Of a stretch of DNA of 23,778 bases, positions 9,038-19,006 are shown piece after piece. Position numbers and translations under genes: made by a program. Source of the DNA: a virus; the IMG/VR virus record IMGVR_UViG_3300027747_003293, positions 1-23,778 of that record; one strand, given 5' to 3'. The notes under the pieces were generated by a model that was not told the origin of the DNA, ran no database searches, and saw only the letters and a list, made by a program, of their open reading frames with translations. How positions within the stretch are numbered: position 1 is the first letter of the stretch; the number at the start of each line of letters is the position of its first letter.

Positions 9038-9065
9038 ATTATAGCTGAACCAGTGGACATGTCAA
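9038..9065 (-). promoter_or_regulatory. Perfect-consensus sigma70-type promoter of ssb
   Basis: On the minus strand TTGACA (9065-9060), a 16-base spacer, and TATAAT (9043-9038). Both hexamers are exact consensus. The predicted transcript start is near 9031, leaving a 36-base leader with the GGAG site before ssb. The -35 box overlaps the stop codon of the upstream polymerase gene (TGA at 9064-9062). An exact pair at this spacing is unlikely by chance, and its position directly ahead of ssb supports function. Confidence 0.9.
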
Positions 9066-10687
9066 GAAACAGGCAGAAAACATTTTTCTATCACAAAGCT
9101 ATCCTTGGCCTTGCTTCTACTTCCTAGAAATACTAAAATATTGCCATTAAATAAATGGTCTTTATATTTTGTAAATTGTTCAGGAAAGAAGATAACGGAG
9201 TCGAGCATCCCAAACTGATCTTCTAGAGTTAAAAATGCCATCTCTTGTCCTGGATTTTTGCCAGTTTTTGTTTTAGTAATACTTACATTAGATATTTCTG
9301 CAGCCATAATAATGTTACTAGACAAACTAGAACTCTTAAACTCTTTACAGTTGGTATTAGACATACTAATATCATATGAGTCTAATCTTGAGCATGTAAT
9401 AGCAACTCCGAGCAGAGAGCTTTCAGAATCAGATAGCCATTCTATCTTATCTAACAGTGAATACGGTGGTCTCTCTATAGATAGAATAGAGTTTTGAATA
9501 ATGGCTTTCCTATTCTTGTTTATCTTCTCAGATAACATTAGAGACAGTACATCCTTCACGCTCTTGTTTGAATAAGTATTAGACAGATTAGTAAAGTGCT
9601 CCAACTCCTTCTTGCTTAAGCTGCTACATATTTCATACTCAAATAACATTTCCGTTCTTGTCTTTTTAAAGTAGTCTAAAGCTCCGCAAGATATGAGCGC
9701 TTTACTTGCTGTAGAGTTTATATTTAACAAAACACTACATAGCGTTTGTGACCAAGACAAATTATTAAGATCTATTGTTTTACATATATCGAGTATTTTA
9801 CTATATACTGATTTTCCAACACCCTTTATATCTGTTAATCCAAAATATATTGCTTTGTTTTTTAAGATAAATAGTTCATTTAGATTTCTGAGATCAGGAA
9901 TATGTACTAAGATATCCATTTCTGTAGCATTTCGCACAAGCTCCTTTATCTCTTGTTGTGGGTCTATTTTATCTTTAGCATATCTCAGATATGATGCAAA
10001 GAAGATCTTTGGGAAATGGGCTTTGGTATATGCAGACAGATAAGCATTCATGGCATAAGAAATACCATGAGATTTATTAAAAGAATATCTTTGTGATTTC
10101 TCAATCCAGCTAAAAATAGACTCGGCTTCTTCTCTAGTGACAATCTTTAGCTTATCTGTGCCTTCTAAGAACTTTTGTTTAATCTTAGCCATTTCTTCTG
10201 GCTTCTTTTTTCCGATAGCCTTTCTTAGAGCGTCTGCTTCTTGAAGATTAAAACCAGCTAAATCCCTAGCTATAGACATAGCCTGTTCTTGATAAATCAT
10301 TTCACCATATGTGGATCCTAAACATTTTTCCAATGAAGGATGAAAGTAGTCTACAGACTCTAATCCATTCTTTTTGTCTATATAATGATTGGATACGCTT
10401 TTTCCTTCTCTAAAAGCCTCCAAGCACCCTGGTCTAAGGATACTAATTAATCCAGATAATTGTTCTATATTTTCTGGTTTAAGTTTTTTAGACATGGTTT
10501 GTCCAAGTCTAGACTCCAATTGAAAGCATCCCTTAGTATTTCCTGTGGAAATCAAGTCCCAAGTTCTTGAACACTCAAGATTTAGACTTTCCAATTTGGG
10601 TGAAAATTCTATTTTTGGAAATTGGGAATCTTGTTTATCCAAAACATTAAATCTACAACCACAATCAAATGTATAATATTCAGACAT
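9062..10687 (-). CDS. dnaE: DNA polymerase III alpha subunit, C-terminal part (separate gene)
   Basis: 541 residues from ATG 10687, overlapping the exonuclease gene by eight bases. It starts with about 45 non-canonical residues (SEYYTFDCGCRFNVLD), then aligns with alpha from the fingers onward: FQLES (55-59), ISILRPGCLE, STYGEMIYQEQAMSIARD (125-142), KAIGKKKPEEMAK (156-168), SFNKSHGISYA (202-212), then a helix-hairpin-helix type YFGLTDIKGVGK and a C-terminal OB domain (NIIMAAEISNVSITKTKTGK onward). The PHP domain and palm Asp residues are missing and are supplied by 11556-13441. Both pieces must associate to give a polymerase. No intein sequence is seen at its start. Well-kept motifs argue that it is functional. 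Confidence 0.9.
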   Translation of the reverse strand: MSEYYTFDCGCRFNVLDKQDSQFPKIEFSPKLESLNLECSRTWDLISTGNTKGCFQLESRLGQTMSKKLKPENIEQLSGLISILRPGCLEAFREGKSVSNHYIDKKNGLESVDYFHPSLEKCLGSTYGEMIYQEQAMSIARDLAGFNLQEADALRKAIGKKKPEEMAKIKQKFLEGTDKLKIVTREEAESIFSWIEKSQRYSFNKSHGISYAMNAYLSAYTKAHFPKIFFASYLRYAKDKIDPQQEIKELVRNATEMDILVHIPDLRNLNELFILKNKAIYFGLTDIKGVGKSVYSKILDICKTIDLNNLSWSQTLCSVLLNINSTASKALISCGALDYFKKTRTEMLFEYEICSSLSKKELEHFTNLSNTYSNKSVKDVLSLMLSEKINKNRKAIIQNSILSIERPPYSLLDKIEWLSDSESSLLGVAITCSRLDSYDISMSNTNCKEFKSSSLSSNIIMAAEISNVSITKTKTGKNPGQEMAFLTLEDQFGMLDSVIFFPEQFTKYKDHLFNGNILVFLGSRSKAKDSFVIEKCFLPVS

Positions 10688-11381
10688 TGGTTTTGTTAAA
10701 AGATCCCTTGAATTTTACTTTAGATGCAATATTACGATGAAGTTTCATAAACCTAATCAGTATCTCTGCTGTGTCTCTAACGTCTTTTAGAGCATCGTGC
10801 GCTCCATCTTTTGATATGCCCATATAGTCTCTTAAATTATCTAATGTATAGTTCTTTAGTTCATTATTTCCTTCAAACCAATAAAAAATCATATTCATTA
10901 AATCTATAACATCTCTTGGATAAAAGAGACTGCTTCTTTTTTCTTTATTGAGATTATTATATTTTGTACTTAATCTCTCTATAATCCTCATATCATATCT
11001 ATTAATATTGTATCCAGCGGCAATGGGAGCACTGAAACAAGACTTCCTATCAGACCTCATATGATACATTTCCAAGTACGACACAAACATTTTCCATCCT
11101 TGATCTTGTTTCTGATATCCTTTCCATTGGTCTAGGATTTCTTGCTTAGAACAGCCCCTAACTTTGGAATGAAAATCAAGAACATCACTATCGCCATAGG
11201 CATATTCAGAATCTTTTTCCAAAAGCTCTGGTCTCATGTTAATATTAAACTCAGAATCTTTAACTATTTCTAGTCTAAATGGATCTATAATTAAAGCAGC
11301 TATTTGAACTGGGCTGCAAACGTCTGGATTGATACCATCCGTTTCAAAATCGAACACACAGATTTTTTGAGAATTAGCCAT
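10680..11381 (-). CDS. DnaQ-like 3'-5' exonuclease (DEDDh)
   Basis: 233 residues from ATG 11381. Exo I: VFDFETDG (D11, E13). Exo II: AGYNINRYDMRII (D130). Exo III: GAHDALKDVRDTAEIL (H195, D200), the DEDDh arrangement of PolIII epsilon. It is therefore the likely proofreading exonuclease for the two-part polymerase encoded on either side. No beta-clamp-binding peptide stands out. It overlaps both neighbours by eight bases (ATGGCTAA at the 5' side), which implies coupled translation with the polymerase pieces. An RNase T-like or sugar-non-specific role is possible but less likely in this setting. Confidence 0.9.
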   Translation of the reverse strand: MANSQKICVFDFETDGINPDVCSPVQIAALIIDPFRLEIVKDSEFNINMRPELLEKDSEYAYGDSDVLDFHSKVRGCSKQEILDQWKGYQKQDQGWKMFVSYLEMYHMRSDRKSCFSAPIAAGYNINRYDMRIIERLSTKYNNLNKEKRSSLFYPRDVIDLMNMIFYWFEGNNELKNYTLDNLRDYMGISKDGAHDALKDVRDTAEILIRFMKLHRNIASKVKFKGSFNKTNV

Positions 11382-11553
11382 TTACCTCTACCAGAGTATT
11401 GCCGGGGAAAAAAGTCCTATTAGCGCTGTTTGCAACGACCTCGGCATTAATAGATCTGCAACAACTTACTTTTACTTCATTAATTTTTCTATATTCGACA
11501 CCATTAACTGTGAACGTAGCATTAACTGGAACATCATTTAATGTCTTTTGCAT
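11374..11553 (-). CDS. 59-residue phage protein of unknown function
   Basis: ATG 11553 to TAA 11376-11374, with GGAG provided by the end of the preceding polymerase gene. Sequence features: FTVNGVEYRKINEVKV, then a CC pair, SINAEVVANSANRTFF and LVEVNG. It looks like a compact all-beta domain (NG turns, alternating hydrophobics). Similar short proteins with an NGVEY...SCC..INA pattern are familiar from phage genomes, but I know no function. Being encoded between the two polymerase halves and overlapping the exonuclease start suggests a polymerase-associated factor; this is inference. Too short for many gene finders. Confidence 0.75.
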   Translation of the reverse strand: MQKTLNDVPVNATFTVNGVEYRKINEVKVSCCRSINAEVVANSANRTFFPGNTLVEVNG

Positions 11554-11555
11554 GA

Positions 11556-13441
11556 TTACTCTCCGTTTTTTAAGATATCTGTTATGGTCATGATCTTATC
11601 TAACATTGCAACGCCTAAAATATCAAATTTTATTACACCCAAATCTTCAAGATCTTGCATCTCCATTCCGGCTATTAATTGATCATTTTTAGTGTCATAA
11701 ATCATGGGACATACATCAGATAAATCTTGAATGCTTATGGCTATTCCTGCCGCGTGTTTAGACTGATTGGATTTTACTCCTTCTAAACGAATGGCTTGTT
11801 CAAACCTTTTTGCAAGAGGTCCTGCTAGTTCATTATCATCATTAATATAGCACCAGTCCTTCAGTTTGTCAACATTGTTTTCTAAGGCCCAGCGAATAAT
11901 TGATGCTTCTCCTGTTTCTTCTTTCATCTCTTGAAGCTCATCTGCTATCTTTGCTTCATCGGGTATGAATTTAGTTATTCTATTCATTTCATCAAATGAT
12001 ATATTACCATAAACTCTTAATACTTCTTTAAGAGCACCTCTACCTTTCATGGTATTATATGTAATCATTTGAGATACTTTATTATATCCATATTTATCTT
12101 TGATATACTTAATGATCTCTTCTCTCTTATTGATCGGTACGTCCACATCTATATCTGGCATAGAGATTCTGTCAGCAGTGTTACGTCCAGTATTATAGAA
12201 CCTTTCGAAAATTAAATCATATTTGATAGGATCAATAGATGTTATTCCAATTAAATAAGACACTAAACATCCAGCAGCACTTCCTCTTCCGGGACCAGGA
12301 AGCCAATTATTCTCTCTTAGATATCGCAAAATATCCTGAACAATCAAGAAATAACTAGAAAGACCAGCGCCTTGTAAAACTTCTAGTTCATGCTTAATTC
12401 TTTCTGCATATTCAGAGTGTTTATCTTCTGGTATATGATTCTTGATCTTTTCTCTCCATCCAGAACGACATAGTTCTCTTAAGTATTCATCTGGATTAAG
12501 GTTATTAGGACATTTGAAATTAGGCAACATGGGTTTGTGTAGAATATCATATTCTTCGCAAAGACTATCTACCCAATTGGTATTTTCTATTTCTTCGTCA
12601 GTATGGAGTTCTTGCATTTCTTCTGGAGATAATATGTAGTATTTATCGGATTTAAAAAAACAATCCATCATAATATCTTCATTATTTAGAAGCTTTTTAT
12701 TAACATCTACAAGAGTTGTCTTTAAATTATTACACAACAATATTCTTTGGTCAACAGCATCTTCTTGAGCACAATAATGTGCGTCTGGGGTGCATATAAC
12801 TTTAGTATTAGTTTGTTTTCCTAGGTCTCGTATAATATTGGTCAATGCTATTTGCTGTGGTAGATTTTCTTGATCCATTAACTGTGACTCTAAAAAGAAA
12901 TTATCTTTACCAAAGATATCTTTCATCTTAGCAATAAACTCTATACCAATCTTGGTAGCATTATCCGGATCTTGCATAATCTTATGGGCTAATGTAGATC
13001 CTAAGTGTCCACAAAATCCTAGAATATTACCATCTAAATATGGAGCTAGCTTATCAAAACTTAGTCGTGGTTTATGGTAGAAGTTATCTTTGTTATTAGA
13101 CTCTGAAACCAAACTTATTAGGTTGTGCCATCCCTGCTTATTTTTCGCGAGAACTATGAAGTGGGTTAATTTAGCATTTTCTTTATTCTTAATAGACGAA
13201 TCGTCATTACTAATATATAACTCACAACCCAGAATAGGTTTGATATTCTTAGCTTTGAGCGATTTATAAAACTGAACTGCTCCAGAAATTGATCCGTGGT
13301 CCGTTATTGCACAGGACTTAAATCCTAAAGCTTGACATCTTGCCGCTATCTGAGCGGGTTTACTTAGTCCATCCAAAAGTGAATAATGAGATTCACCTAA
13401 GAATGGACATGCAGAGGCGTATATACCTTTGTCATGTCCAT
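11556..13441 (-). CDS. dnaE: DNA polymerase III alpha subunit, N-terminal part (PHP + palm), one-base frame break
   Basis: ATG 13441 follows AAGGAG by nine bases and gives MDMTKVYTPLHVHS, the PHP HxH motif, then hits TAG at 13399-13397. From 13400 the -1 frame continues LGESHYSLLDGLSKP and stays open to TAA 11556. Adding one base restores 628 codons. Positions counted from L at 13376: TDH 25-27, GCEL 50-53, GFCGHLG 120-126, TPDAHY 196-201 (PHP metal ligands), GPGRGSAAG 361-369, palm Asp D408 and D410 in SMPDIDVD, third Asp D585 in IKFDILG. It ends 21 residues later, so the whole catalytic palm is here and fingers onward lie in 9062-10687. Starting at TTG 13376 would lose HxH. Either a consensus error, a mutation or recoding. 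Confidence 0.88.
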
Positions 13442-13450
13442 CTATTTAGT

Positions 13451-13456
13451 CTCCTT
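13451..13456 (-). promoter_or_regulatory. Ribosome binding site deciding the dnaE-N start
   Basis: AAGGAG-type sequence on the minus strand, beginning within the nuclease stop codon (TAA 13457-13455) and nine bases from ATG 13441. It supports 13441 as the true polymerase start, and supports the 13455 stop as the true nuclease end. Confidence 0.8.
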
Positions 13457-14452
13457 ATGTGGTGCTGCCTGGGGCTTTATATTTACTGAAAGTATGACCA
13501 GAATGCTTATATAGATCTACAACAGTGTTGATACCATAAAGTTCTATATCGTGCTTAACCTGTTCACACTTGGTCATCATAGATCCATTAGAACAAGCTT
13601 GGTGGTCTCTGTATTCTTCCATTGCTGGTATTGATGAATTTTCAAATGTAGTTTTGCCGAAATGACATAGCTTATTACACATCCAGCTCTATTTAGTTTT
13701 GGTTTCTTTGTATTCTTAATAACTTCAAACTTATCTCTTAACATATCTTCTGTTTTACTAAGATCAGAATCATCAAAACAAATAGAGAAAGGTCCGCCAT
13801 CATTAATAAAATATATCGAGAATATTATATGCTGAATCTTAGGAAATAAATGCTTAATAGCATAATGGTATATTCTAAGTTGTGGATCGTTCTCTAATTT
13901 TTCTTGTGTTTTTTCTTTTCCTGTAGCCCAATCTAGTCTTCGTCCGGTTTTCCAGTCGATGACTTCTATGGTATTATCGTCAACGAGGGTGATCAAGTCA
14001 ATAGTGCCTTTTAAAGCTAAATTTCCATTCAGCTTACCTTCCGACGTATCGAACGAATACTTTGCCCAATTTTTATTGATCTCAAAATCAAAATGCTGTT
14101 CTGGACATAGTATATTCCTATTACGAGGATCAAACATGCCATTATTAAACTCTATCGCTTTATATACCCAAGCATTACAGTCTTTATAGTCTTTTGGAGA
14201 CCATTTATGGTGACTAGAGCTATCAGAATAGTACTTATATACTTGTTCAATAATCGTATTTAAATTATAATTATTAGTATCTAGTTTACCAACAATATCG
14301 TCTACGATAGTCTCTTCTTTATTTTGTTGGGCCTGTTTAATAACCGCTAGTATTTCTAATACCTTATGAACTATGGTTCCCTTATCGGCCTTTTGTCCAG
14401 ATGGTCCTCTCCAGCCAAGGACATATTCAAAAAAATACTGCTGCTCGCACAT
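13455..14452 (-). CDS. RecB/Cas4-like PD-(D/E)XK nuclease with Cys cluster; frame break and no normal start
   Basis: From ATG 14452 the frame reads CEQQYFFEYVLGW, KADKGTIVHKVLE (His motif, 22-33), KGTIDLI (D152), EVIDWKTG (D166, K168) and QLRIYHYA (191-198), the order of RecB-family nucleases. At about 13685 the frame breaks: it reads LNRAGCVISYV and drifts to a stop at 13577, while the next frame gives MCNKLCHFGK...C...C to TAA 13457-13455, just before the polymerase ribosome site. Adding one base gives 332 residues and NRAWMCNKLCHFGK, a Cys cluster that with the N-terminal Cys would hold Fe-S or zinc. The typical S-x-S-x-[LF] start (RSSSFNTHSMC) lies upstream of 14452 with no ATG; see findings. 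Probably processes DNA ends. Confidence 0.75.
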
Positions 14453-18136: not shown

Positions 18137-18608
18137 GTTTCACCTTTGTTTTTTGTACTGATAAGATAATATCAGATAGATGTTTGATGTTATTAGCAAG
18201 ATATTGCAACCTATCACTACGCTGTTTGGCATACTTTTTGATTTTATTTAAAGATGAAGCTTTATCATTATGCTTAATGGCTTGTAATGACTTCTCTATA
18301 TATCCATATCCTTTGTAGTTATTTATTTCGTCAGCAATAGTTTCTTTAATGGTCTCATCTGCCCAATTATATCTAGCCAATTCCCTATTGATGGTTCTTT
18401 GTGTGTGAAAAGCAAACTGGCTAAGTCTATAGGATATTTGCGCACAATCTTCTGGAGTTAATTTTTCAATCTGATCTCTAGACATGGTAAAGTAGTTATT
18501 TATTTCATCCGCAGGAAAACTATCGCTAGAATAACCGGACATTCCGATAGAAGACTCATATTGGTCAAGAATCTTATCCCATTCTTCGACTTGTTCTTTA
18601 GTATTCAT
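18126..18608 (-). CDS. All-helical phage protein beside the recombinase, possible mediator
   Basis: 160 residues from ATG 18608, which overlaps the TGA of the nuclease gene as ATGA; chosen over an in-frame codon at 18626. Almost entirely helical: TPEDCAQISYRLSQFAFHTQ, TINRELARYNWADETI, then GYGYIEKSLQAIKHNDKA and KKYAKQRSDRLQYLANNIKHLSDIIL, with many Lys/Arg in the second half. In T4 the recombination mediator UvsY is a small, basic, helical protein working with UvsX. A comparable role is plausible from position (two genes after the recombinase) and composition only. Confidence 0.55.
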   Translation of the reverse strand: MNTKEQVEEWDKILDQYESSIGMSGYSSDSFPADEINNYFTMSRDQIEKLTPEDCAQISYRLSQFAFHTQRTINRELARYNWADETIKETIADEINNYKGYGYIEKSLQAIKHNDKASSLNKIKKYAKQRSDRLQYLANNIKHLSDIILSVQKTKVKHGS

Positions 18609-19006
18609 TTTATTATCTGCTCCCACTCAGAATCGCTTTTATCAAAAGGTAGCTCTATATACTGTATACTATTTAATTCGCACCAAGACACTTTATCTCT
18701 ATCTCTTTTTTTGTGCTTAATAAATCCAAGCATATTAGTATGATAATGAGGAATAAATTTATAGTGCTGCTCACCATGAATCTCAATACATTGCTTGATA
18801 AGTGGAATATAAAAATCTAAAAACAATGTCTCTGATTTTCTCAGAGGAATTGGTACTTCTTCCAAAATTTGAAGTGTAGGATATCTTATAGTCAATAGCT
18901 TTCTTGCCCTGATATGGAGAGATGACTTGTTCTCAATCTTACCATGAGCCATGTTTCCTGTCAAGTGCCAATTGTGCGAATTATTATCTAGATCTCTAAC
19001 TAACAT
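18605..19006 (-). CDS. Vsr-fold / DUF559-like endonuclease
   Basis: 133 residues from ATG 19006, overlapping the recombinase stop. After an N-terminal His-rich segment (NSHNWHLTGNMAHG) comes a compact nuclease core: SLHIRARKLLTIRYPTLQIL, EEVPIPL, LFLDFYIPLIKQCIEIHGEQHY, then HKKRDRDKVSWCELNSIQYIELPF. The ordered residues E, D-x-Y-I-P, and E-x-H-G-x-Q-H-Y are typical of the Vsr/PD-(D/E)XK phage nucleases, where Q takes the usual Lys place. Likely cuts mismatched or branched DNA during recombination; a Holliday-junction resolvase role is a reasonable guess. Its partner genes are the recombinase and the helical protein. Confidence 0.7.
   Translation of the reverse strand: MLVRDLDNNSHNWHLTGNMAHGKIENKSSLHIRARKLLTIRYPTLQILEEVPIPLRKSETLFLDFYIPLIKQCIEIHGEQHYKFIPHYHTNMLGFIKHKKRDRDKVSWCELNSIQYIELPFDKSDSEWEQIIK

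Follow-up and report, generated by a model that had tools for sequence, protein, structure and literature searches.

How does a phage express a polymerase gene that meets a stop codon and a change of reading frame 14 codons after its start? The question is raised by a 23.8-kb uncultured-virus record (IMG/VR IMGVR_UViG_3300027747_003293, positions 1 to 23,778; this whole stretch of 23,778 nt is referred to as the window), in which DnaE, the alpha subunit of polymerase III, is encoded on the minus strand by separate N and C halves. Comparison of this locus with its relatives indicates that the 5' end of the N-half gene (dnaE-N) very probably carries a programmed translational bypass element of the phage T4 gene 60 type, brought by an HNH homing endonuclease. 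An earlier note on this DNA had given 13441 as the end coordinate of the locus and had the polymerase encoded in two genes. At 13441 stands an ATG that lies in another frame than the rest of the N half, and three reading stretches were found, namely ORF1, the rest of the N half, and the C half.

The frame opened by the ATG ends after MDMTKVYTPLHVHS (ORF1) at a TAG codon (coordinates in Table 1). The remainder of the N half, HYSLLDGLSKPAQ..., is open in a different frame, for which the one in-frame start listed is a TTG (13376) within SLLDG. Other relatives have the uninterrupted sequence HVHS-HYSLLDG; hence the 11-nt insert of the window sits in PHP motif I, a motif that supplies metal ligands. 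Skipping the insert restores exactly HVHS followed by HYSLLDG. A sequencing or assembly error at 13399 was rejected, as the same stop and insert are present in dozens of independent metagenome contigs. Recoding of the TAG as an amino acid was likewise rejected, since it does not restore the frame.

Loci were collected by a DNA-pattern scan, dnaE-N homology scans, and HNH-protein homology scans, which gave 113 distinct 5' ends, 43 interrupted and 70 uninterrupted. In all interrupted ends the insert starts with TAA, TAG or TGA directly 3' of a serine codon, TCT or TCC. Its length is 8 nt (3 ends), 9 nt (9), 10 nt (12), 11 nt (18) or 12 nt (1), so that all three values modulo 3 occur and the frame of resumption is independent of gap length. 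The peptides beside the gap are constant across frames, HVHS on one side and [H/M]-[Y/F]-SLLDG on the other (one element has HD). The triplet before the resumed codon is TCT, TCA, ACT, TCC, GCT or GCC, with C in the middle in 29/29 non-redundant elements; in the window, the take-off and landing triplets are identical (TCT/TCT). After de-duplication, nine elements have an in-frame gap of 9 or 12 nt, and these would be in-frame stop-hops. The gap lengths also bear on programmed -1 frameshifting at TCT TAG, which would insert LGES and yield ...HVHSLGESHYSLLDG. In the window, slippage after TCT does open a frame reading HVHS-LGE-SHYSLLDG. Gaps of 8–12 nt, however, would need different shifts among relatives, including zero, and there is no slippery heptamer. 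Moreover, the stem begins at the A-site codon, too near for the usual -1 stimulation. As all three frames occur among the gaps, a fixed frameshift is excluded, and we regard -1 frameshifting as highly improbable.

Two stems accompany the gap. In the 5' stem, the HVH codons CA[C/T]GTCCAT adjoining the take-off codon are base-paired with nucleotides 1–9 of ORF1 (ATGGAC[G/A]TG and variants). Pairing is 9/9 in 36/40 elements and 8/9 in 4/40, whereas the best register in 67 uninterrupted controls pairs only 3–7 of the 9 positions. The take-off stem has 5–8 bp; its first base is the first or second nucleotide of the stop codon, and its far end falls in the S-L codons. Its two sides change together, as in TAACGA/TCGTTA, TAGTGA/TCACTA and TAGCGA/TCGCTA, and a TGA stop goes with GAGTG/CACTC; a mismatch is present in one element, L057. 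For both stems, the elements' own arms out-pair 5000 reassortments of arms among elements, in which the observed Watson-Crick pairing was never equalled. The proportion of paired cells is 98.4%, against 31.8–52.2% in slid controls, and the covariation score was matched by 0/500 shuffles. Kinship among the sequences weakens the shuffle statistics, but the changes on both sides of the stem fall on separate branches of the tree. In the window, the minimum free energy is -27.2 kcal/mol, with a z of -4.64. RNAalifold adds a 4-bp extension including part of the take-off codon, which never varies and is therefore no evidence by itself. Synonymous sites inside the stems are frozen: the valine codon is GTC in 38/38 elements, against 3/42 valine codons in uninterrupted genes. 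Elsewhere in the 3.7 Mb of searched strands, outside dnaE, the two-stem design gave only scattered, chance-like matches.

One could also regard the interrupted end as decayed, with an HNH insertion having inactivated the PHP N-terminus and left a neutral remnant. The HNH genes are themselves truncated in several lines, which such decay would fit. Across many divergent contigs, a remnant would nevertheless not be expected to keep two stems that covary, synonymous sites that are frozen, a stop at an invariant place, and the ORF1 peptide, and we give decay hardly any credence.

Bypassing is strongly supported by these comparisons. The frame-breaking stop, its spread, the gaps in all frames, the covarying stems, the HNH linkage, and the patchy phylogeny are observed in the sequences; that ribosomes hop, how efficiently they do so, what the stems contribute, and that the gene is shielded from HNH cutting are what we infer. 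Specifically, the ribosome would translate the 14 codons to the serine TCT and find the A-site stop codon as part of a hairpin. It would then detach and slide 11 nt, and the peptidyl-tRNA-Ser would re-pair at the triplet before CAT, where translation would resume. The joined product would have the normal PHP motif HVHS-HYSLLDG, with the junction VYTPLHVHSHYSLLDGLSK. Holding of the A-site stop in the stem-loop is proposed by analogy with gene 60, in which the stem-loop prevents premature termination. The upstream hairpin, which contains the start codon and the HVH codons, may refold behind the ribosome and favour its forward movement. The N half would then join the separately encoded C half.

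Several observations weigh against bypassing. Many contigs were retrieved with a DNA pattern in which part of the motif was fixed, so the loci found without it matter most; elements from the protein- and HNH-based searches, which are independent of the pattern, show matching features (L002, L003, L010, L012, L014, L021, L100, L101, L116, L132, L153, and L157, all with the same features). A nascent-peptide signal like that of gene 60, about 30 residues back, does not fit into the 14 codons of ORF1, and any such signal would differ. Take-off and landing triplets are identical in only 9/29 non-redundant elements; in 20/29 their first two letters agree. Partial pairing at landing is plausible, judging by the title of a paper cited in PMC3014915, according to which minimal conventional pairing can suffice. 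Lastly, an in-frame TTG or ATG follows the gap in most elements.

Because of these TTG and ATG codons, termination followed by reinitiation is the main rival of bypassing. ORF1 would then be a leader peptide; the ribosome would stop at TAG and restart at the TTG of SLLDG, at ATG in the M variants, or at GTG in some gaps, giving a DnaE that lacks PHP motif I. After the gap, an in-frame TTG stands at codon +4 in 27/38 elements or an ATG at codon 0 in 10/38, gap-9 inserts contain an in-frame GTG, and the short stop-to-start distances suit coupling. However, in L003 the TTG is replaced by CTG, and the first in-frame start comes at codon 43; uninterrupted genes, too, usually have the M codon and the TTG. 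The native peptide YxPLHVHS is retained in ORF1, and in it the Pro and Leu residues are fixed while codons outside the stems vary synonymously. The remaining Asp, His, and Glu residues of the PHP domain are invariant in interrupted and uninterrupted proteins alike. HxH is therefore expected in the protein, and reinitiation appears improbable.

The origin of the bypass element is suggested by its neighbors. A full-length HNH gene lies directly upstream of it in seven distinct relatives, and truncated remnants consisting of the 3' part only are found in three more groups; the element of the window itself has no HNH gene. The HNH protein of L100 matches PHROG HNH/endonuclease VII families. The 3' end of the HNH gene itself contains the Shine-Dalgarno sequence and the new dnaE start codon. 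The AAGGAG upstream of ORF1 in the window is probably the remaining 3' tail of an HNH gene, because the relatives encode the HNH C-terminus ...NKEKI... there. A displaced native dnaE start was recognized 5' of the HNH gene in L010 (MKNYIPLHVHAH-stop) and L043 (MKNYIPLHAHSH-stop), far above shuffled controls, while in the other five HNH-bearing relatives a displaced native 5' end was not significant relative to such controls. An HNH homing endonuclease may thus be pictured as having inserted into PHP motif I and supplied a substitute, recoded 5' end, with the HNH gene later lost in most lines, including that of the window. The element would protect dnaE from HNH cutting.

On a dnaE-N tree of 40 rows, built without the element region, the interrupted genes are scattered and require 13 changes, in which gains and losses are not separable. 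A single clade of interrupted genes is rejected (approximately unbiased test, p-AU about 1e-87). The simplest account of these data would be horizontal transfer followed by loss of the HNH gene. We consider it likely, with less confidence than in bypassing as such, that the whole is a mobile translational intron. The HNH cassette would invade the polymerase gene, which is essential, and bring with it a substitute, recoded N-terminus and a self-contained two-hairpin signal for hops of 8–12 nt, natural in-frame stop-hops among them; it would have spread repeatedly among phage dnaE alleles. In L184 and L187, an HNH remnant lies directly upstream of an uninterrupted dnaE start; this is perhaps a line that lost the bypass element.

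To our knowledge, T4 gene 60 is essentially the only phage case of efficient programmed bypassing, and a single case does little to show which features bypassing requires. The dnaE element is best read as gene 60-type bypassing, in a new variant with many natural replicates. In gene 60, the UAG that comes after the take-off codon lies in a stem-loop, a second stem-loop is found on the 5' side, and the HNH gene mobA is adjacent; the stem-loop around the stop prevents premature termination, the ribosome slides and re-pairs downstream, and the upstream stem refolds behind it (PMC11194080, PMC5009743, PMC3014915). The dnaE element likewise has a stop directly after the take-off codon and within the take-off stem-loop, a 5' stem-loop upstream, and a location in the 5' region of its gene. 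In both systems an HNH endonuclease is linked to a split essential replication gene (PMC3014915, PMC5009743, PMC11194080). mobA is an apparently defective HNH gene (PMC3014915), and the gene 60 insert has been suggested to protect against nuclease (PMC5009743). The two differ in that the dnaE gap is 8–12 nt rather than 50, take-off is at Ser TCY rather than Gly GGA, and the landing triplet is NCH and often not identical to the take-off codon. ORF1 of dnaE has 13–15 codons compared with 46, and the dnaE start codon lies inside the 5' stem. In addition, the interrupted gene encodes a polymerase rather than a topoisomerase, and the dnaE element has many natural variants.

Two other systems invite comparison. 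Synthetic stop-hops (Weiss et al. 1987, in the account of the review PMC5009743) are also short hops over a stop between related codons, and some dnaE cases are similarly in frame (9 or 12 nt), but the dnaE elements are natural, conserved, and placed between two stems. The same review, from 2016, states that no natural in-frame stop-hops were known (PMC5009743). The byp elements of Magnusiomyces mitochondria resemble the dnaE element in being short bypassed inserts with landing codons that are not always matched (PMC5009743); they differ from it in that the dnaE element resides in a phage gene, in a structured context, with HNH linkage and at a single conserved site. A literature search, with most subscription journals outside its coverage, found no report of bypassing in dnaE. 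The element offers dozens of natural variants that differ in gap length, stop, and landing triplet, whose stems covary and whose ORF1 is very short; the uninterrupted sister alleles serve as controls, so that the minimal rules of ribosome hopping become testable. It also supports the view that bypass elements move in company with homing endonucleases, and it shows that an essential polymerase gene can be missed by gene callers or given a wrong start.

Table 1. Features of the dnaE locus in the window
Feature	Positions	Strand	Remarks
Shine-Dalgarno-like AAGGAG	13451..13456	-	5' of ORF1; equivalent DNA in relatives encodes HNH ...NKEKI... C-terminus
ORF1	13400..13441	-	14 codons, MDMTKVYTPLHVHS; DnaE N-terminus with PHP motif I (HxH)
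5' stem-loop, 5' arm	13433..13441	-	ATGGACATG; includes start codon
5' stem-loop, 3' arm	13403..13411	-	CATGTCCAT; codons H-V-H
Take-off codon	13400..13402	-	TCT (Ser)
Coding gap, 11 nt	13389..13399	-	TAGGTGAATCT; TAG stop first (13399-13397), landing triplet TCT last (13391-13389)
Take-off stem-loop, 5' arm	13391..13398	-	AGGTGAAT; first base within stop codon
Take-off stem-loop, 3' arm	13377..13384	-	ATTCACTT; inside codons Y-S-L
ORF2	11556..13388	-	Remaining DnaE N half (HYSLLDGL...; PHP, NTPase/palm); resumes at CAT 13388-13386
P59	11374..11553	-	Conserved 59-aa small beta-barrel-like protein
Exonuclease	10680..11381	-	DEDDh-type (PF00929, phrog_192)
DnaE C half	9062..10687	-	Fingers, HHH, OB; extra N-terminal stretch with invariant CGC

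The minus strand of the window carries, in order, a PD-(D/E)XK nuclease gene, the DnaE N half, the 59-aa gene (P59), the exonuclease gene, the DnaE C half, and SSB. The domains of a family C polymerase DnaE (PHP, NTPase/palm, fingers, and HHH) are present. The earlier note had described the polymerase as encoded in two genes, and this split is real, conserved, and moderately interesting. Its division of domains was borne out by a domain search: PHP and NTPase/palm lie on the N half (11556-13376; PF02811, PF07733), and fingers, HHH and OB on the C half (PF17657, PF14579, and a weak PF01336), so that the break falls between the palm and fingers parts as claimed. The search also agreed that there is no intein at the break, no intein domain being found in the N half, the C half or P59, and that a DEDDh-type exonuclease and a 59-aa ORF lie between the halves. 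The proposed overlap of starts and stops holds for P59/exonuclease and exonuclease/C half (8 nt each), but the N half and P59 are separated by a 2-nt gap. Wherever the contig reaches that far, 39 close IMG/VR relatives have the same succession of N half, P59, exonuclease, and C half. Relatives with fused halves, which the note would have taken as a sign of an artefact, were looked for among 124 loci with at least 2 kb downstream; there were none, and the halves stay separate, with one locus showing only P59 within its available DNA.

P59 is recognized in 101/124 loci, and the others usually have about 180 nt of room in its place. Its predicted structure is a confident small beta barrel (pLDDT 91.6). 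Fold matches in the PDB are weak (EF-P/ribosomal L2-like, Z at most 5.2), and one viral fold match, to an unnamed protein, has E < 0.001. P59 belongs to no Pfam or PHROG family and has no sequence relative in the PDB at a meaningful E-value.

In Chryseobacterium phage MA9V-3 and Bacillus phage BpsS-36, alpha is one continuous gene. Pseudomonas phage Y1 (OQ572403), examined as a candidate for a split, has one unbroken ORF spanning both halves. A scan of genome contigs gave distant dnaE genes only, none more than 37% identical, and the best 80 matches included no close phage relative. Rossellomorea phage phiT1 (PV767480.1) resembles the window in that the break in alpha comes after the KFDxLG helix and a small ORF separates the halves; it differs in that its 50-aa ORF is unrelated in sequence, no exonuclease lies between the halves, and the proteins are about 30% identical. 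The phiT1 split at the same boundary is independent, and splitting there is not unique to the lineage of the window. Cyanobacterial split DnaE also makes polymerase III alpha from two genes, whereas the break in the window has no intein and is at a different site. The note had further proposed co-translational assembly of the two-part polymerase with P59 as a bridge, which is compatible with bypassing. The conserved four-gene order with its tight packing is in line with such assembly, as is the conservation and good folding of P59. We nevertheless find this doubtful, given the non-homologous 50-aa ORF of the phiT1 split and that compact operons are usual in phages.

Minor observations concern the surroundings. 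The extra N-terminal stretch of the C half (10590-10687, minus strand) precedes the finger domain; it is conserved in the aligned relatives, and its CGC motif is invariant. The PD-(D/E)XK (Cas4/RecB-like) nuclease gene 5' of dnaE (13577-14452 and 13455-13682, minus strand) has a one-base frame shift near 13682. This break was rejected as a second element, the 1-nt difference being private to the window while relatives read in frame (indel or error). An Rfam search of the window returned no match. Two more homing-endonuclease-like genes are present in the window at 2038-2850 and 18605-19006 (minus strand; phrog_559, phrog_9084). In L003, L004, and L005, a sigma-70-like TTGACA-N17-TACAAT promoter-like sequence was seen by eye in the spacer that separates the interrupted dnaE from the nuclease gene.

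In L100, L115, L145, and L032, additional inserts of about 1-2.5 kb occur between dnaE-N/exonuclease and dnaE-C, which suggests a hot spot for mobile elements that takes in the entire polymerase locus. L010 has an intein-like insert in the DnaE C half (9250-10700), between FNK and SH, with LAGLIDADG-like sequence and parts in three frames. In L043, L053, L065, and L078, the dnaE N half ends in an intein-like tail after about residue 460. The intein-like C part of L043 ends in ...HN, with resumption at SAAG, and in L053, L065, and L078 a freestanding EDxHD-like endonuclease lies between the intein-like parts. The intein-like parts of these four loci probably represent a fractured split intein in the polymerase palm.

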